Below are positions 15,946-34,604 of a stretch of 34,683 nucleotides of DNA, in pieces (positions within the stretch are counted from its first letter, which is position 1; each line of letters starts with the position of its first letter). The position numbers and the translations under genes are program-made. This DNA comes from a virus, in IMG/VR virus record IMGVR_UViG_3300009176_000054, positions 1 to 34,683 of that record; one strand, given 5' to 3'. The notes under the pieces were generated by a model. It searched no databases. It saw nothing but the letters and a program-made list of their open reading frames with translations, and was not told where the DNA came from.

Positions 15946-16751
15946 TCACTTTTCTTTCTTCTTCTCTGTTTCCTCTTCCTCCGATGGAATCCAAGCCAAA
16001 GCCGAGTCAGGAGGATCAGAAGAGTAGACTGAGATCCACTCTCCAGGCAGTCCTTTCTCCGGCGGCTTAGCTTCGTGATCGGGGGAAGTATTTACGGCGA
16101 TTTGAATATACGCCAATTTGAATTTTCCGTCCTTGAAAACCGTACACCAGAATCCTGGACTCCCTAGATCAGGAGGCTCGGCAGGATTGGCAGGAGGGAC
16201 GGAATAATTCTCTGGCAAAGACTGATAAATCGGCGGTCTATCAGTCTCTACTGAGGGGGGCGGGGTGGCCAAACTTCCGGTGGATAATAAATAGGGTGTG
16301 AAGGATAATTTCCTGTTCCTGGGGGTCTGCTCCCTCCTCCCGGCGGCTGCGGCCAAATCTCTGGAGGATAAATTGGTCCACCACCGATTGTGGGCGGACG
16401 ACCACCACTACCCGGCGGCTGCGGCCAAATTTGCGGCGGATAATAGATCGGATGGCTTGGTCTTTCTCCTCCTCCTGGAGATCCTCCTCCTCCTCCAGGT
16501 GGCTGCGGCCAGATCTCAGGAGGATAATAAATCGGATGGCTCGGTCTTTCTCCTCCTCCTCCTGGAGATCCTCCTCCGCCTCCTGGGAATCCTCCTCCTC
16601 CTCCCGGCGGCTGTGGCCAAATTTGCGGCGGATAAATTGGCCCACCACCGATTGTTGGGGGCTGACCGCCACCGCCACCCAATCCAGGAGGAACTCCTGA
16701 TTGATCTGGCACAAAAATTACCAACTTAACCCAAACCTCTTGCAGACCCAT
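15946..16751 (-). CDS. Pro/Gly-repeat protein with probable -1 frameshift extension (167 aa / 268 aa)
   Basis: The zero-frame gene runs from ATG 16751 (GGAG 7 nt upstream) to TAG at 16248. It encodes at least five PIY(Y)PP-E/Q-IWPQPPGGG repeats separated by Gly-rich linkers. At 16260-16254 the minus strand reads C_CCC_CCT, a -1 slippery heptamer in the right frame. Slippage skips the TAG and continues in a frame open to 15946. That frame adds 102 residues: more Pro-rich sequence (PPIYQSLPENYSVPP), then a compact domain (GFWCTVFKDGKFKLAYIQIA), then an acidic/basic tail. The Pro-rich composition continues across the junction, so the two frames belong to one protein. Programmed frameshifting, natural indel, or a homopolymer sequencing error can each explain this. 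Function unknown; a tail-associated spike or linker is possible. Confidence 0.6.
16254..16260 (-). promoter_or_regulatory. Candidate -1 ribosomal frameshift site C_CCC_CCT
   Basis: Zero-frame codons are CGC CCC CCT CAG TAG. The heptamer fits X_XXY_YYZ exactly, and the stop follows after one further codon. Re-pairing one base back leads into the 102-residue extension. Run-length polymorphism of the six C is the main alternative. Confidence 0.5.
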
Positions 16752-17370
16752 TCACGTTCTCCTTGAATTGAAGAAACTTCTCACCGATGTATTGTGTGTA
16801 CTTCGGAGGGATCGCTTGAATAATTTGGGCTCGATTCATCCACCAAATACCAGTAGCTAATTGATAATTGTAAAGTTTATAAGAACTTGCTGTACCACCA
16901 TTACCAGCGAGAGTAACATATCTACTAATATAATCTTTATATTTTCTTAGTTCAGGTTGCGAGCACTGCCAATTAACCTCGAAGAGCCTTCTTCTAACAA
17001 TAGGAAGATTAAACATATTTCCTTCAAGAATAATAGGATCAATAAGTGGAGCATCTCTCACATTTTCAATAACATAATAACAATTATTTTGATCAAAGAA
17101 TTCTCTTAACTCTTTGATATAACAATCATGATTATCTCTATTTTGGGATCGGGTAGCTAAAGAGTGCTGTTGGCAAGGAGGAGAAGCATGAATAAGATCG
17201 AAAGAAGTAATATCACATTCCTCTAAATATTCTATAGCATCAGCTTGAATAAAATGATAAGGATAATTCAATATCGGTTCTGAATCTACTCCGATAATAA
17301 AATCAAAACCAGCTAACTCATATCCACGAGCCGCACCTCCCGATCCACAAAATAGATCGAGGAGTCTCAT
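16726..17370 (-). CDS. C5-cytosine DNA methyltransferase, 214 aa
   Basis: Transfers a methyl group from S-adenosylmethionine to C5 of cytosine in DNA. Motif I DLFCGSGGAARG is at residues 5-16, motif IV SPPCQQHS at ~63-70 with catalytic Cys66, motif VI ENV at ~102-104, and motif VIII RRRLFE at ~126-131. A C-terminal AIPPKYTQYIGEKF corresponds to motifs IX/X. Length is short for the family, with a compact target-recognition region. No restriction gene is nearby, so it is an orphan enzyme, probably protecting phage DNA from host restriction. It lies inside the tail module: its ATG overlaps the upstream stop (ATGA) and its 3' end overlaps the Pro-rich gene by 26 nt. Confidence 0.92.
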   Translation of the reverse strand: MRLLDLFCGSGGAARGYELAGFDFIIGVDSEPILNYPYHFIQADAIEYLEECDITSFDLIHASPPCQQHSLATRSQNRDNHDCYIKELREFFDQNNCYYVIENVRDAPLIDPIILEGNMFNLPIVRRRLFEVNWQCSQPELRKYKDYISRYVTLAGNGGTASSYKLYNYQLATGIWWMNRAQIIQAIPPKYTQYIGEKFLQFKENVNGSARGLG

Positions 17371-18336: not shown

Positions 18337-19029
18337 TTAACTGGTGCCGTGAGTGACAGTTGCAAAAGCAATATTACAATTGCCTTTGACGCTCACTTGC
18401 CCAGCCTTAAGATCATGATCGAGAGATTCCCAACGGAAGTCAGCGAGTTCGATTCGTTCGCTATCTCCGCAAGGAGGAACGTAGCAAATAGTAATATTAA
18501 CGGCATACGGCTCGCACGGATCGGAAGAGGAAGATACCCAATCCGAAGCTTCTCCGATATTCTTGAGAGCCTCTTCGACGGTGGGCGGATCTCCAGTTGC
18601 CGCTCTGAGGAACTCCCAGATAAAATCTAGGGATACTTCAACCGGAGAGTCATCTCCTAGTTTGACTGTATAAATCTTTCCACGATTGAGGACATAGGTT
18701 ACAGCTCGCTTCTCGGAGTAAGTTAGCGTTCCTTCTCCGATCTTTACCTCAAGCATATTTCCGATCGCTTCAACAGGATCTGTTGAAGCCGCATCTTCAA
18801 CTAGTGGAGGAACAATCGTTACCGATGTTCCTGCCACTGCCTCAATAACATAATACTCTAAAGAATCTCCGATAGTGATACCGAGCCCCGGTATATAGCC
18901 GGTAGCTGAAGTAAGCGCAAGAACTGTTGACCCTCTAGCAGCATCAGCACTAAGTGTAGTCGCTGCAACGGCAGAAACACTACCATCGCTTATAAAAACT
19001 GTAGCAGCTCTTAGATCAATTACCGCAAT
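18337..19029 (-). CDS. Major tail tube protein, 230 aa, probable ATT start
   Basis: Tube-protein-like: an N-terminal region of small residues and strands (SVSAVAATTLSADAARGSTV), then KIGEGTLTYSEKRAVTYVLN RGK, PVEVSLDFIWEFLRA and a C-terminal RIELADFRWESLDHDLKAGQ, followed by VSVKGNCNIAF. It comes directly before the tail chaperone, as expected. The only conventional start in frame, TTG 19044, precedes an AGGAGG that would then lie inside the gene and itself has no ribosome-binding site. The shared leader GGAGGTGTGTC puts ATT 19029 at the start position, giving MAVIDLRAATV. It begins after a strong hairpin (19069-19135). Confidence 0.75.
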   Translation of the reverse strand: MAVIDLRAATVFISDGSVSAVAATTLSADAARGSTVLALTSATGYIPGLGITIGDSLEYYVIEAVAGTSVTIVPPLVEDAASTDPVEAIGNMLEVKIGEGTLTYSEKRAVTYVLNRGKIYTVKLGDDSPVEVSLDFIWEFLRAATGDPPTVEEALKNIGEASDWVSSSSDPCEPYAVNITICYVPPCGDSERIELADFRWESLDHDLKAGQVSVKGNCNIAFATVTHGTS

Positions 19030-19040
19030 GACACACCTCC
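19027..19040 (-). promoter_or_regulatory. Leader motif GGAGGTGTGTC-ATT (copy 1 of 3)
   Basis: On the minus strand GGAGG, six bases, then ATT. The 13-nt core GGAGGTGTGTCAT is identical in three places (also 25144-25156 and 25352-25364), always in frame with a gene that lacks a sensible ATG, GTG or TTG at that spacing. Confidence 0.7.
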
Positions 19041-19068
19041 TCAAGTAGGACTTGGTTAGCGGCGTCTA

Positions 19069-19135
19069 ATACGTCATTGCCCCATTGAAAAGGAGAAACG
19101 GGCAGATTCTCTTAATCATAGCGGCAACGACGTAT
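19069..19135 (-). other. Long hairpin upstream of the tail tube gene
   Basis: Arms 19069-19081 and 19123-19135 pair over 13 positions. The single difference is an A-C mismatch on the plus-strand RNA but a G-U pair on the minus-strand RNA, so the minus transcript pairs fully. A smaller inner stem (GAGAA 19093-19097 with TTCTC 19107-19111) lies in the loop. There is no T tract. It fills most of the 113-nt gap between the PEP-CTERM gene and the tail tube start and may act as a transcript-stabilising or processing structure. Confidence 0.6.
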
Positions 19136-19142
19136 ACACAAA

Positions 19143-19787
19143 CTATCCGGAAATATATTTAAACAGCGGGAGAAGCATTATCCCGAGCCCAAAGAGAATT
19201 ACCGATTTGGGCTCCGGGATCGCTTGAGAAAACGATCCATTACCGACAGCAACCGCCCCAGAAGTAGCAAAGAAACTGGCAAAGTCCGTTGCCCCGTTAA
19301 AGGCGGTAGCAGTAAATGTAAAATTAATAGTTCCTGTACCGGCACTAAATAAACTAAAATCATAATTGGGATTCAAGTTTGCTTCTAGTCCAGTTACGAT
19401 ACCAGAAGCATTAAAGAAATTTGCTAGTGGAGTTACTCCTGTTTGGAGATTAAAATTTAAGATAGCTTGAGCCCCAGGAGTATCACCGATAACTTTTTGA
19501 TACTCAGGAGGATCAAGTCCCAAAGAATAAGTATTTACTCCGGTGGAAGTGACCAATAGGGTGATAGGCCCAGGAACAGAAATAGCCTCAGGAGCAATAA
19601 AGCTCCCATTAACGGTATTCATCTGGGAACTAAGATTTGGTACCGAAAATACAATAGTAGCGGTACCATCAACAATACCAGTATTAGTAGCTCTGAACTC
19701 TCCGATGTTGCCAGAGTCATTGTATACCAAAGTACCAGCTTTGGCATTGACTGCAAACAACATCAGAATAATCAAAAACTTCTTCAC
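19143..19787 (-). CDS. PEP-CTERM sorting-domain protein, 214 aa
   Basis: N-terminal Sec signal peptide (MKKFLIILMLFAVNAKA, likely cut after AKA). A beta-rich, Gly/Ala/Thr/Asn-rich body follows (YDFSLFSAGTGTINFTFTAT). At the C-terminus (residues 190-214) is AIPEPKSVILFGLGIML, then LPLFKYISG: a P-E-P motif, a hydrophobic segment and a short basic end. This tripartite tail is the exosortase (EpsH/XrtA) recognition signal of bacterial PEP-CTERM surface proteins. GTG start at 19787 with AGGAG 7 nt upstream. The gene sits between the secreted protein (19799) and the tail tube gene, inside the virion operon. The basic end is weaker than the usual RRR cluster. It may alter the host surface or have been acquired from the host. 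Confidence 0.8.
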   Translation of the reverse strand: MKKFLIILMLFAVNAKAGTLVYNDSGNIGEFRATNTGIVDGTATIVFSVPNLSSQMNTVNGSFIAPEAISVPGPITLLVTSTGVNTYSLGLDPPEYQKVIGDTPGAQAILNFNLQTGVTPLANFFNASGIVTGLEANLNPNYDFSLFSAGTGTINFTFTATAFNGATDFASFFATSGAVAVGNGSFSQAIPEPKSVILFGLGIMLLPLFKYISG

Positions 19788-19798
19788 TTTCTCTCTCC

Positions 19799-20161
19799 TT
19801 AGAAACAGCCGTTAGGTCCGCAAACGCGACCACGCATCTTGAACTTTTGTTTGAACCTAGAGAATCTCGGAGCCGAATAGACTGACGGAGCAGCAGAATA
19901 AATTTGAGAAGAAAACACCGGTGCTGAATAACGAACTATTGGTGCTGAGTAGATAGGAGTAGCAACCTGAGGAGTGGCTTTAGAAGGAAGCTGTGGTGTG
20001 GCCTTAGAAGGAATATCGGGGATCGCTTCGAGTTCAAATATTACCGAGGGGCCAATAGTAGCAGTCGGAGGAAGCTCCGAAGAATATGCTTGAGAGTAGC
20101 AGCTCTGTGCGAAGGAGGTTCCTGGAATAAAAACCAGGACCAGGAACAGAAAACGTTTCAT
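19799..20161 (-). CDS. Secreted 120-aa protein with PSKATPQ and YSAP repeats
   Basis: Sec signal peptide MKRFLFLVLVFIPGTSFAQ. The mature part has Cys near its start (QSCYSQAYSS), two PSKATPQ copies, several YSAP-type repeats (IYSAPIVRYSAPVFSS, VYSAPRFS), and a basic C-terminus ending RGRVCGPNGCF with two Cys. The low-complexity middle suggests an extended linker, and the Cys pairs may form disulfides outside the cytoplasm. Its stop is 12 nt before the PEP-CTERM gene's GTG, so both are co-expressed. Its ATG overlaps the upstream stop (ATGA). No enzymatic motif; function unknown. Confidence 0.65.
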   Translation of the reverse strand: MKRFLFLVLVFIPGTSFAQSCYSQAYSSELPPTATIGPSVIFELEAIPDIPSKATPQLPSKATPQVATPIYSAPIVRYSAPVFSSQIYSAAPSVYSAPRFSRFKQKFKMRGRVCGPNGCF

Positions 20162-20652
20162 CTTTGTCTCCTCGGAAGGTGGAAAGCCGGGCTCTTAACA
20201 TCTTTTAATAGCATCTCATAATCACTACTCATTACGCTTCTTTGCATATGAGTATCTTGTTGTATAAGACCAAAGTTAATAATATTTATTCTGTTGTTGT
20301 TTCGGGGCGTTAACTTAAGCTCAGAAACAAGACCATGATCGTCCTCAAGACTATCTCCGTATTTATAAACACAAATATCCATATATGCAGCAGCAAAAGC
20401 ACCAGTCATCCTACTCATGAGGTACTGATCTTTCTCAACAAATGCAGTAAGCATTAAATCTACACTACATAAAATGAGATAAGTGCTCCGACTAAGCTGA
20501 TTAATACTAGGACCAATAAATCTTAGCTCAACCCAAGAAGTATTCCTATCATACCGATCTATATAGAGCGGAATCGAAGCCTCTTCAGCAGCCAACATAA
20601 AATGTTTGACTACTGAGGCATAAATCCAGCGGTTAAGATTTGGATTAAGCAA
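20158..20652 (-). CDS. Putative tail terminator / completion protein, 164 aa
   Basis: A head-tail joining protein is expected between the connector (20784) and the tail tube gene. This product, with an N-terminal helix then WVELRFIGPSINQLSRSTYL, ILCSVDLMLTAFV and a strand-rich C-terminus, fits the size and layout of tail terminators. The frame starts at TTG 20652 with GAGGA 6 nt before it; no ATG is available nearby. The 131-bp gap upstream (20653-20783) contains no supported gene. Assignment is by order and size, not by a diagnostic motif. Confidence 0.5.
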   Translation of the reverse strand: MLNPNLNRWIYASVVKHFMLAAEEASIPLYIDRYDRNTSWVELRFIGPSINQLSRSTYLILCSVDLMLTAFVEKDQYLMSRMTGAFAAAYMDICVYKYGDSLEDDHGLVSELKLTPRNNNRINIINFGLIQQDTHMQRSVMSSDYEMLLKDVKSPAFHLPRRQR

Positions 20653-22113: not shown

Positions 22114-23478
22114 TCATCCCAACATAAGCACGCCGTTAAGAGGCTCCAACATTGCAACCCCCATCAGCATATCAAGGGTGACCAGAGTACCCTGATCGAA
22201 CCCATCGTACGACATAACTACTCGCATCGCGAGATTATTAAAGTTTACGACAGCGGCCAAAGCACCCATACCATTCCGAGGAATAGCAAGTGGGCGATTG
22301 ACGAAAGCAATCGCGGTCCTATGAAATGCAAAATTGTAGGAACCCGCTGGACCGAGGTTAACAGCATCGCCATTGGCTAGAGCAAGTACCAAGGGCCGAT
22401 CGACAGTAATATAAGTAGAACCATCAGTATCGATGATTCCATAAATATTAGTGGAATCGGTACCAAAAGTTACCGGCTGACCGACAACCGGAGTACCACC
22501 AGAAATTAGAATATCTTGGGCATATCCGGCAGCATACCCAGCAACCAAATTAACGGTGGCCTTACCATAAACAGTAACCACCGCAGAGTTAGCGACGGTA
22601 CCAGAGGAACCCGTAGAAGTGGTAATAGAGGTGGGAGTAGCACCACCAACCGTAGATACCACCTGAAGTGGAGAGTCGTCTCCAGCGAATGTAACCCACT
22701 GTCCAGCAGTGATAGCGGCTGAGAGACCAGCCACAACAAATGTGCTGGTTCCTGGAGTATAACCACCGACCTTATTCACAGTGCCGGTGACAGTAGTCGT
22801 AGTTCCAGGAGGAACATACGGGGTATTCTGAGCCATAAAGATATTGAAGCCGAACTTTCGCCCCAAGGACGCTTCCCTCAAGGCGGTACCGTCATCACCA
22901 ACCCTATTGGCATCGGTGAATTGGGTATTCTTAAGAAGAGCACCCTCAGATACCGTAGTCAGAACTAGATTCCGATCATTATCTTCCAAAACCTTATTCT
23001 GATTCATCTTAGTCCGAGTATCGATAAGAATATTACCGGCATTGGTACTAGTTAGAGTACCAAGACCACCAGAACAATATTTACGGAATCGGTGACACTG
23101 CACCGACAAAATAATATCGACCTGCCTCGCTATTGCTAGCGCAGCAGGTCGCAGATAAACCTGAGTTAGCTCTTGGAAGGACTTCGACTCCTCACCATCT
23201 CTAACGAGGAAAGAGACGTGCGGGTGCTGATCTAGAGGAACAGGAATATTAACGGCGGTTGCCGCTTGGACGGTAACAGCGTCCTGTTCGGTCTTCCTCT
23301 TCGACTTAAACTCACCCGGCTTGCGGGTATTTACTACGTCGCCGTAGGCAGCGATATCGTCAGAGAAATCTCGATATACGAGGTTCCCCATAACCATATT
23401 TTCTTCAAGGATAGCAAGAGCTTCCTGAGCCCAAAGTTCGGGAACGAAAGCATCAACAGTATTCGGTGGCAGCGCCAT
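22114..23478 (-). CDS. Major capsid protein, P22 coat-like HK97 fold, 454 aa
   Basis: It reads ALPPNTVDAFVPELWAQEAL, AILEENMVMGNLVYRDFSDD, then NTRKPGEFKSKRKTEQDAVT. The combination of an E-loop-like basic stretch with DVVNTRKP, then PVPLDQHPHVSFLVRDGEES, matches the P22 coat family. It continues with an insertion-type beta domain (~235-380, GGYTPGTSTFVVAGLSAAIT, AGQWVTFAGDDSP, VVGQPVTFG) before the C-terminal strands (AFHRTAIAFVNRPLAIP, LNGVLMLG). AGGAG lies 6 nt before ATG. It follows the scaffold gene and has two hairpins in its leader. The codon content is higher in G+C than its neighbours, as often seen for highly expressed capsid genes. Confidence 0.9.
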   Translation of the reverse strand: MALPPNTVDAFVPELWAQEALAILEENMVMGNLVYRDFSDDIAAYGDVVNTRKPGEFKSKRKTEQDAVTVQAATAVNIPVPLDQHPHVSFLVRDGEESKSFQELTQVYLRPAALAIARQVDIILSVQCHRFRKYCSGGLGTLTSTNAGNILIDTRTKMNQNKVLEDNDRNLVLTTVSEGALLKNTQFTDANRVGDDGTALREASLGRKFGFNIFMAQNTPYVPPGTTTTVTGTVNKVGGYTPGTSTFVVAGLSAAITAGQWVTFAGDDSPLQVVSTVGGATPTSITTSTGSSGTVANSAVVTVYGKATVNLVAGYAAGYAQDILISGGTPVVGQPVTFGTDSTNIYGIIDTDGSTYITVDRPLVLALANGDAVNLGPAGSYNFAFHRTAIAFVNRPLAIPRNGMGALAAVVNFNNLAMRVVMSYDGFDQGTLVTLDMLMGVAMLEPLNGVLMLG

Positions 23479-31413: not shown

Positions 31414-31755
31414 CTAATTCTTGGCGTATAATAAACACCAATATCTTGAGTCAGAATCGAAAAAAGCATGACCTAAATAGGTGAAATTTCCGTAGATTTT
31501 AGCAGATTTATCCGGATTTCGGAGGAAATGATTCATAATTGTCTCTTCATTTGGTCCACGAGCAATATTATAATCTAAATCTTTAAAATAATTGAGTTGC
31601 TTTCTAGTTTGATCAAAATTCCAGAAGACATTAAATCTTCTTCTGGCCATCCACTTAGCACTCTTTAAGGCATAATCTGATAAAACTTTAGAGAAAATTA
31701 GTGGAGGTAAACCGTTCTCAGACCGAAAATTATTATGAAAATCTAAGATATTCAT
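31414..31755 (-). CDS. CAP-superfamily (SCP/PR-1-like) protein, 113 aa
   Basis: The N-terminus NILDFHNNFRSENGLPPLIF, then SDYALKSAKWMARR, matches the start of a CAP domain (HN..R...G.PPL....L...A...A..MA). Further on, IARGPNEETIMNHFL corresponds to GENIA.G..T....V..W, NPDKSAKIYGNFTYLGHAFF to SPGHR.NIL...FT..GVG, and SRYWCLLYA to the terminal YW...FA strand. The catalytic-like His of S-x-G-H is Lys here (PDKSAK) and other His ligands are missing, so metal or peptidase activity is unlikely. There is no signal peptide. It could bind a ligand or act within the virion. ATG overlaps the upstream stop (TAATG at 31755). Confidence 0.68.
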   Translation of the reverse strand: MNILDFHNNFRSENGLPPLIFSKVLSDYALKSAKWMARRRFNVFWNFDQTRKQLNYFKDLDYNIARGPNEETIMNHFLRNPDKSAKIYGNFTYLGHAFFDSDSRYWCLLYAKN

Positions 31756-32309: not shown

Positions 32310-33988
32310 AGAATGTTCCCGATAGATTGAGAAGAAGCTAAAGAGAGAGCTAAAGGAAGAGCAATTTCGGCGTAATTTCGAGCGTGAGCATAGTGGTCAG
32401 CTTTAACATTAATATATTCACCGATTGGGTTCCCAGAACGATCTTTCTTATATTGTCTAACTGGAGCTTTTAAATGATCTTTATATTCTAAATCTGTGTT
32501 TGCTGGAAGAGTAATTAATTGGGACTTGAATCGGCCGAGGGATAGATCAAGCCATGAGGTTCTATCAACTGAGAGAGTTGGTTCATCCTCATTAGAGATA
32601 TGGATCTGCTTCCCCGTGATTCCGGTAGCGTAGAAGGCTAACCTAACCTTACCATAGAAGCGTGAAGAAAATTCATAAGCTTTCCTTCTCTCAGGATGGG
32701 CATCGATAACACAATAACGAACATGATAATCGTGCATTAAATGATCCAACTCCTCCATCTCTCTAACTTTTCCGTAAGCAATAACTCTAGGTTTACATTG
32801 GAAATTTAAATCGGTAGAGATACTTGAGACCCTACTAGGAATACTCCACTCATCAATCTCATAATGTATTGACGGATAACCAACGTCTACACCCATAGTA
32901 TGTATGCCGTGGGTGGCTGATTCCTTCTTTAAATAGGTTCCGATTACTCTCTCTAAATCTGAATCAGTTATTCTAGAGCCTTTGACCTCATGAGTTAAAC
33001 CAAGCTTAGAATTATAAAATTCTTGTTCGGAAGTAGGGTCTTGAAGAGCAGCAAAATAAGAAGTAGCTATCTGAGCCGGAGTAACCTTCATAGAATAAAG
33101 TTGGGAGATATGCCACCCTTTAATATCTCGATCTGAGTAAGATTCAATCCACTTAGAATTATTGAGGAAGTTAACTTTATCCTCATGATAAAGGACATTT
33201 TTGCAATGCTTACAGATTAAGTGAGACTTCTCAATATCCGGATCTGAGATATGAGTTCCGGTAAAGACAATATTATCTGGATATTCTAAATTCTCGAATC
33301 TAGAGCACGAGGGGCACCGGAAGTAGAAGATATTTTGTGAGGAACGGTTAAAATATTTAGAGATACCGGAATCATCAATTGTTGGAGTTGAAACCATCCA
33401 CGCATAATGTTCTCTTTGTCCAGAGAGACGTTCAAGGGCTAAAGGAATATTAGCCTCATTCATCTCATTAAGTTCATCGAGAATTAATACATTAACCGGG
33501 ATAGACTTAAGACCAGCTCTCGATTTAGAACCACGGAGATAAAAGTTAGCAGAACCAGCACGTTTATGTCCGATATTTTTAGTGTCTGAGAATAGATTCT
33601 CTAAGTAAGGTGATAATTCTAGGGCTGAATCAAACCGAGCAGCTGAGAAGTCTGAGGCATCAGGAGTTCTTGATGGAAGGACATAAAGAACATCGAAAGA
33701 GTTTACATCTATATGATAGAAAGCTATATTTATTAAGGTCTCAGTGAAGCCTATTTGGGCACATTTTGCCCCCAGATTTAGCTCAGCTTCAGAATCATGC
33801 ATTTCCTTAAGCCAAGGATACCACTTAAAATCCCAAGGTCCACGATAAAGTTCTGAATCCATGACACGGTACTTGGTCGCCCAACTAGATGCCTTATTAA
33901 TAGTTTTTCGTCCAAGCCCCTTCTGAATTGATTTAAGAAATTCTTCTTTAAGTGTATTTTTAATATTTGAATTGAAGCCTCTATACAT
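32306..33988 (-). CDS. terL: Terminase large subunit, 560 aa
   Basis: ATPase and nuclease that pumps and cuts phage DNA into the prohead. Walker A-like CAQIGFTETL is at ~76-85 (a GpA-type QxGxTE loop), Walker B VLILDELNEM at ~167-176 and a zinc-ribbon pair CPSC/CKHC at ~225-262. The nuclease carboxylates sit at GVDVGYP (~366-372), CVIDAHPERR (~426-435) and KADHYAHARNYAE (~529-541). This fits the GpA/lambda-type TerL family. ATG 33988 has GGGAG 8 nt upstream; an upstream in-frame GTG at 34003 is less likely. It overlaps the HNH gene by 8 nt. Confidence 0.92.
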   Translation of the reverse strand: MYRGFNSNIKNTLKEEFLKSIQKGLGRKTINKASSWATKYRVMDSELYRGPWDFKWYPWLKEMHDSEAELNLGAKCAQIGFTETLINIAFYHIDVNSFDVLYVLPSRTPDASDFSAARFDSALELSPYLENLFSDTKNIGHKRAGSANFYLRGSKSRAGLKSIPVNVLILDELNEMNEANIPLALERLSGQREHYAWMVSTPTIDDSGISKYFNRSSQNIFYFRCPSCSRFENLEYPDNIVFTGTHISDPDIEKSHLICKHCKNVLYHEDKVNFLNNSKWIESYSDRDIKGWHISQLYSMKVTPAQIATSYFAALQDPTSEQEFYNSKLGLTHEVKGSRITDSDLERVIGTYLKKESATHGIHTMGVDVGYPSIHYEIDEWSIPSRVSSISTDLNFQCKPRVIAYGKVREMEELDHLMHDYHVRYCVIDAHPERRKAYEFSSRFYGKVRLAFYATGITGKQIHISNEDEPTLSVDRTSWLDLSLGRFKSQLITLPANTDLEYKDHLKAPVRQYKKDRSGNPIGEYINVKADHYAHARNYAEIALPLALSLASSQSIGNIL

Positions 33989-34604
33989 TTTTATAACTCC
34001 CACTTATAATTTCTTCAATACTATATCCTTTTTTCAACCACCAATAAATAATACTATAATTTAAATTATATTTCTTACAAATATCAGTTATATTTATTTC
34101 TTCTCCATTTATATTAAATTTTCTACTTCTGGTTGTGTTTTTAGCTTGTTCTGCATCAGTTGCCCAAGTACAATTTTCTGGTTCATAGTGCCAATTACAA
34201 TCAATACGTTCTATTGAATATTCTAAAGAAGGTCTTGGATGCATATCTTTATAAAAATTATTAAAATCATGCCAACTTTCACATACAATAATTCCTCGAT
34301 TTCCATAATCTGAATAAGATGTATCGTTTTTATTATAGCACCTATTCATCATACAATTCCAAGGCTTATATTCTAAAGTACGCCATCCTCCATGAATATA
34401 ACATTTTTCAATATCCATTTCTTTTTTTAAACAACCACAAGATCTTATCCCACCATCTCGTAATGAATCACCACGAACAATACAAAGTTTTCCACACTCA
34501 CATATGCACTTCCATTTTGTTCTTTTTTCAAATCTATGATAAAAAGAAAGAACAGTAAGTCGACCATAAACATGACCAGTAAGATCTAAAATAGATTTAG
34601 GCAT
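33981..34604 (-). CDS. HNH-type putative endonuclease with zinc ribbon, 207 aa, paralogue of 25366
   Basis: Same order as the 25366 gene: zinc ribbon with WKCICECGKLC and RSCGCL, then IHGGWRTLEYKPWNCMMNRC, YSDYGNRGIIVCESW, FYKDMHPRPS, YSIERIDCNWHYEPENCTWA. A C-terminal helix-turn-helix-like part (ITDICKKYNLNYSIIYWWLK) may bind DNA. It is very AT-rich, interrupts the expected small-large terminase junction, and its 3' end overlaps terL by 8 nt. The only spacer to the upstream gene is 2 nt. Confidence 0.85.
   Translation of the reverse strand: MPKSILDLTGHVYGRLTVLSFYHRFEKRTKWKCICECGKLCIVRGDSLRDGGIRSCGCLKKEMDIEKCYIHGGWRTLEYKPWNCMMNRCYNKNDTSYSDYGNRGIIVCESWHDFNNFYKDMHPRPSLEYSIERIDCNWHYEPENCTWATDAEQAKNTTRSRKFNINGEEINITDICKKYNLNYSIIYWWLKKGYSIEEIISGSYKNV

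Follow-up and report, generated by a model that had tools for sequence, protein, structure and literature searches.

A PEP-CTERM-like exported protein as putative envelope cargo in the late operon of an uncultivated phage

Does a gene lying among the virion genes of an uncultivated tailed phage encode a protein that the exosortase of its host could sort? Exosortase substrates are known as surface or matrix proteins of bacteria, and an earlier note on the 34,683-nt stretch of viral DNA analyzed here (hereafter the window) had read a 214-aa ORF as such a substrate, encoded inside a phage virion operon. As an IMG/VR record the window is linear, and most of it is also contained, at 99.9% identity, in the 58.4-kb record IMGVR_UViG_3300025934_000025; the 214-aa protein sequence is identical in both. 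We confirmed the ORF at 19143-19787 on the minus strand, with a GTG start codon and the ribosome-binding site AAGGAGAGAG. The features of its product are as follows.

19143..19787, minus strand: PEP-CTERM-like exported protein, 214 aa (translation, partial NCBIfam/Pfam matches, composition)
19737..19787, minus strand: signal peptide MKKFLIILMLFAVNAKA (sequence and hydropathy rule)
19146..19220, minus strand: C-terminal IPEP and hydrophobic tail IPEPKSVILFGLGIMLLPLFKYISG (sequence, profile scores, TIGR02595/PF07589 matches)

The N terminus, MKKFLIILMLFAVNAKA followed by GTL, displays the KK, hydrophobic core and A-K-A of a classical Sec/SPase I signal, as judged by eye and with a crude hydropathy rule, which bears out the signal peptide claimed earlier, and the protein runs from there to SQAIPEPKSVILFGLGIMLLPLFKYISG at its other end. 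The IPEP lies 25 residues from the C-terminal end and is directly followed by the hydrophobic stretch SVILFGLGIMLLPLF, with a mean hydropathy of 2.66 over 14 residues. True PEP-CTERM tails end in RRRR/KKR clusters; here the hydrophobic stretch is followed by KYISG, with one Lys and no basic cluster. The IPEP-hydrophobic-basic tail described in the earlier note is thus present in its first two parts but not in its basic end. The single-sequence model of the protein (pLDDT 42) was too poor for a fold search, and its best portion is the terminal helix 194-212, itself of low confidence. The ectodomain is rich in T (12%), N (10%) and S (9%), with N/S/T/G amounting to 42%, no Cys and a K+R content of 1.2%, which falls outside the range of 18 other proteins of this phage (at least 4.8%) and within that of PEP-CTERM proteins from the MAGs in which related phages occur.

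We compared the protein with the curated models of PEP-CTERM/exosortase (EpsH) substrates, TIGR02595 and PF07589, a class whose described composition bias (Haft et al. 2006, PMC1569441) is matched by the ectodomain. With TIGR02595 (cut-off 16 bits), the isolated 28-aa tail scored 16.1 and a 41-aa tail 14.5, and the full protein went unreported; with PF07589 (cut-off 20.7 bits), the isolated tail scored 17.9 and the full 214-aa protein gave nothing. A PEP-CTERM model match, by which the earlier note would have its reading judged, is therefore obtained with TIGR02595 on the tail alone, but neither on the full protein nor with PF07589. On the full-length protein, PEP-CTERM families rank best, with scores of up to 20 bits that stay far under their own cut-offs. 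A signal peptide, a C-terminal hydrophobic stretch and a PEP occur together in none of the 4,298 ORFs of related phages, 36 of which have the first two features only, and when the last 40 residues were shuffled 200,000 times, the PEP was correctly placed in 145 cases. With a custom profile built from 21 PEP-CTERM tails of two MAGs carrying related phages, the tail scored 8.3 bits vs 6.1 for the best of 4,298 control tails; among 2,000 shuffled tails, one reached 9.3 and another 8.2. The combination of features thus appears far from chance, which is an unlikely source for it, and we consider the protein PEP-CTERM-like, a marginal case and no clean member of the class.

The surroundings of the gene, including the capsid gene that served as query for finding relatives, comprise the following features.

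22114..23478, minus strand: major capsid protein (P22-type coat), query for finding relatives (PF11651, phrog_283)
20158..20652, minus strand: neck / tail-completion gene, upstream border of the insertion (IMG/VR relatives; function by position)
19799..20161, minus strand: second exported-protein gene, 120 aa, signal peptide MKRFLFLVLVFIPGTSFA, Pro/Ser/Tyr-rich, ending in CGPNGCF
19070..19134, minus strand: hairpin between the 214-aa gene and the tail tube, outer stem of 12-13 bp (folding)
18337..19029, minus strand: tail tube, downstream border of the insertion (relatives; function by position and from the earlier note)

The 214-aa gene lies, as claimed, in late-gene orientation (minus strand) between the neck/tail-completion gene and the tail tube. 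It shares this slot with the 120-aa gene, which begins with an ATG overlapping the neck-gene stop codon (ATGA) and is separated from the 214-aa gene by an 11-bp gap. Relatives of the neck gene in IMG/VR contigs are ~23-33% identical and always adjoin the tail tube. Among the candidate stretches from IMG/VR, the P22-type coat family counts 489 relatives, and both the neck and tail-tube genes were readable in 63 of the fetched loci. In all 63, the neck-to-tube distance is at most 134 bp with no gene between, so that the extra gene is missing from the same slot, as expected of a moron or cargo gene; we found neither a PEP-CTERM ORF nor a relative of either inserted gene in the loci of the fetched relatives. 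The 214-aa gene is therefore no normal part of the virion operon to which it had been assigned, and the two genes are best described as lineage-specific cargo in the late operon. Codon usage and GC3 of the 214-aa gene resemble those of late genes, suggesting that this cargo is either old or adapted.

As for the expression of the insert, its promoter-like sites are no better than the shuffle background, and we found no clear terminator, the single downstream hairpin (19070-19134) having no terminator T-run. The insert is therefore more likely to be expressed together with the late operon, by read-through, than independently. The hairpin has a fold z of -3.5, none of 200 shuffles folding equally well, and could possibly act as an attenuator or processing element; an Rfam search gave no match. 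Further downstream, the tail tube has no well-placed ATG, GTG or TTG start (window 19027-19044) and most likely begins at a rare ATT codon at 19029-19027 (AVIDLR...), because both the relatives and an AGGAGG 6 nt upstream point there.

Other genes of this phage were noted in passing. HNH endonuclease-like ORFs, probably mobile homing-type endonucleases, are scattered among the phage genes (236-727, 8883-9359, 25366-25968 by inspection only, and 33981-34604), and two of them were scored for composition and proved to be low in GC. The phage also encodes two proteins of the CAP-domain (cysteine-rich secretory) type, at window 31414-31755 and L017:16594-17097, the latter with a likely signal peptide; together with a papain-like protease (L018:4084-4872), they give this phage an unusual secreted-type set. 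The tail genes include a C5-cytosine methyltransferase-like ORF (window 16726-17370), which at 214 aa falls short of the length of the Pfam model, and the tail region also holds a Gly/Pro-rich repetitive ORF (window 16248-16751) with PPGGGGG / IYYPPEIWPQ repeats.

Relatives of the inserted genes were then sought in phages and hosts, as the earlier note had proposed, and the 214-aa gene was found again only in the near-identical record, its sole match in IMG/VR. The 214-aa protein has no relatives in INPHARED, PLSDB or 392 Planctomycetota genomes, nor in 84,980 species genomes in an exact-word seeded search that detects close relatives only, and it has no PHROG match. A weak match in a Phycisphaeraceae MAG (L102, E 0.002) could not be reproduced and was rejected as a homologue. 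Similarly, the 120-aa partner has no relatives in IMG/VR apart from the near-identical record, and one doubtful match, with internal stops, in Planctomycetota.

Clues to the host come from three MAGs in which capsid relatives are present, one each of Planctomycetota, Phycisphaeraceae and Anaerolinea. A 444-kb Planctomycetota contig harbors the nearest integrated relative and, at 375,235-375,813, a PEP-CTERM gene; the genome to which it belongs has an exosortase (E 1e-57) and ~60 PEP-CTERM matches above cut-off. The Phycisphaeraceae MAG has two exosortases and the Anaerolinea MAG none, so that two of the three MAGs with phage relatives encode exosortase. In the Anaerolinea bin, the relative forms the start of a 63-kb contig; because this contig does not exceed a phage genome in length and the bin has no exosortase, it is possibly a mis-binned phage, the alternative being a Chloroflexota host devoid of exosortase. 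The presence of exosortase in both Planctomycetota genomes carrying relatives is suggestive only, because just 154 of 392 sampled Planctomycetota genomes have one. Among Planctomycetota, we found only weak, partly low-complexity matches at the DNA level or as possible CRISPR spacers, and no exosortase turned up in the window itself, searched with the EpsH model. The view that the gene ties the phage to an exosortase-bearing lineage thus agrees with the presence of phage relatives in Planctomycetota MAGs equipped with both exosortase and PEP-CTERM proteins, but the patchy occurrence of exosortase in this phylum makes it a tentative one.

A scan with canonical PEP-CTERM tails identified 60 IMG/VR contigs, in most of which the pattern applied picked out a readable PEP-CTERM ORF. 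This count is an upper bound for phage contigs, because some of them (e.g., L141 and L145, with several PEP-CTERM genes each) may include bacterial flanks and because the low-GC L179/L182-184, not counted as proven phage, have bacterial-looking neighbors, the one tested being without a phage match. Eight representatives all scored above the TIGR02595 cut-off (19.5-24.3 vs 16), two of them also above that of PEPxxWA-CTERM. One family (...ATLQIEVFDNGALIDNVTGITTGAASLT...VPEPSTWAM...) is found in 66 IMG/VR contigs and is ~80% identical, its fetched stretches ranging from 39 to 65% GC. Example loci are given below.

L139:5452-6090, L158:5455-6099, L232:10001-10651, others in L196-L260: 66-contig PEP-CTERM family

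The PEP is kept in 44 of 53 readable ORFs of this family, and the others mostly have PES, PEA, PET or PEL with the hydrophobic and basic end intact; pairwise dN/dS among eight members is 0.06-0.25, mostly 0.1-0.2. In the loci tested, the neighbors are genes for endolysin, ejection protein, tail fiber, RecE/RecT, DNA polymerase and helicase, with the endolysin gene of L232 lying 133 bp from the PEP-CTERM gene, and a different PEP-CTERM gene adjoins a large terminase. The predicted fold of the family is all-beta (pLDDT 75) and has weak matches only, to carbohydrate-binding modules and phage tail/tailspike domains (TM at most ~0.5), so we claim no function from it. With the queries used, the family has no match in isolated-phage or plasmid records, three PEP-CTERM proteins tested had none in INPHARED, PEP-CTERM tails had none in PHROGs, and we found no literature report of phage-encoded exosortase substrates. 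Like the window protein, the members are phage-encoded, exported and beta-rich, with a PEP tail and a phage gene neighborhood; unlike it, they have canonical VPEPSTWAM...RRR tails over the TIGR02595 cut-off, are well conserved and belong to other phage types, without sequence homology to it. The recurrence of PEP-CTERM proteins that pass a curated model on phage contigs is thus a stronger result than the window gene. The earlier suggestion that a phage exploits the exosortase gains from these other uncultivated phages, but for the window protein, whose tail is marginal, it stands less firmly.

Based on these results, we propose that the insert is lineage-acquired envelope cargo, expressed late, exported by Sec and probably passed to the host exosortase, a reading that we hold with about even confidence. 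According to this model, the two exported-protein genes (19799-20161 and 19143-19787) would have been acquired as cargo and placed in the late operon, where they would probably be co-transcribed with the tail genes, the 214-aa protein being made alongside late proteins or from the prophage. It would be exported by Sec and its signal peptide removed. Past export, we infer that the C-terminal hydrophobic tail holds the protein in the inner membrane with the PEP at the periplasmic face, where the host exosortase would probably cut it and sort it to the cell surface or matrix. On the infected or lysogenic cell, it would most likely alter the envelope, with receptor masking, exclusion of superinfecting or re-adsorbing phage, or help in envelope remodeling as possible effects; we infer surface masking or exclusion as its purpose.

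The main rival to this proposal is a plain membrane anchor, in which Sec exports the protein and an uncleaved C-terminal helix keeps it in the inner membrane, the PEP being coincidental or decayed and the exosortase uninvolved. The lack of a basic cluster, the Pfam score under threshold and the missing TIGR02595 match of the full protein all speak for such an anchor, which we nevertheless find rather unlikely, given how seldom shuffling places a PEP at the membrane boundary (145/200,000) and given an ectodomain composition that is that of PEP-CTERM proteins. The two adjoining exported genes also recall a spanin-like lysis pair, with the Pro-rich product of 19799-20161 as outer-membrane and that of 19143-19787 as inner-membrane partner. 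Consistent with this, the 120-aa protein has a Cys two residues past its predicted cleavage site, the relatives bear small membrane proteins, holin-like by inspection, between the capsid and neck genes, and an endolysin gene neighbors the PEP-CTERM gene in one other phage. However, Cys and lipobox are both missing from the 214-aa protein, which anchors C-terminally, whereas two-component inner spanins anchor N-terminally; its 120-aa partner has no good lipobox, and the pair is missing from the relatives. The missing lipobox and the anchor topology make a spanin-like role improbable. A unimolecular spanin combines a lipobox cysteine with a C-terminal transmembrane segment; this candidate was rejected, as the 214-aa protein has such a segment but zero Cys.

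Were the gene instead a host PEP-CTERM-type gene captured by accident and decaying as a neutral passenger, its restriction to one known lineage and its degenerate basic end would be accounted for, but not its intact ORF, good ribosome-binding site, close spacing to the partner gene, late-gene-like codon usage and identity over 214 aa in two records, which leave this explanation a slim chance. A virion structural protein, such as a tail decoration, is very improbable: the gene is located among virion genes, but the signal peptide would take its product out of the cytoplasm, where virions are assembled, and it has neither a counterpart in the 63 relatives nor a PHROG match.

Beyond this locus, phages may use the surface-sorting machinery of their hosts. 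In the broader form of the proposal, which we rate slightly below even, exosortase substrates are encoded by uncultivated tailed phages of several unrelated groups, which rely on the exosortase of the host to display phage proteins at the surface of infected cells, the window protein being a divergent, Planctomycetota-associated case of a class that is unreported. If so, the exosortase would be an interface between phage and host that is open to testing (for exclusion, receptor masking or biofilm matrix), PEP-CTERM genes would hint at the host range of uncultivated viruses, and the highly conserved 66-contig family would offer a handle on the purpose of exosortase sorting.

Compared with known PEP-CTERM substrates (PMC1569441), the 214-aa protein differs in being phage-encoded, in having no basic cluster and in scoring at or under the curated cut-offs. 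It resembles them in its signal peptide, the absence of any other membrane span, the PEP followed by a hydrophobic stretch at the extreme C terminus, and an ectodomain that is Thr/Ser/Asn-rich, Cys-free, basic-poor and without homologues. Prophage morons and lysogenic-conversion genes provide the other comparison: in contrast to morons, the insert showed no clear promoter and terminator, but like them it adds non-structural genes to the late operon of one phage lineage, and its product is predicted to act on the host envelope.
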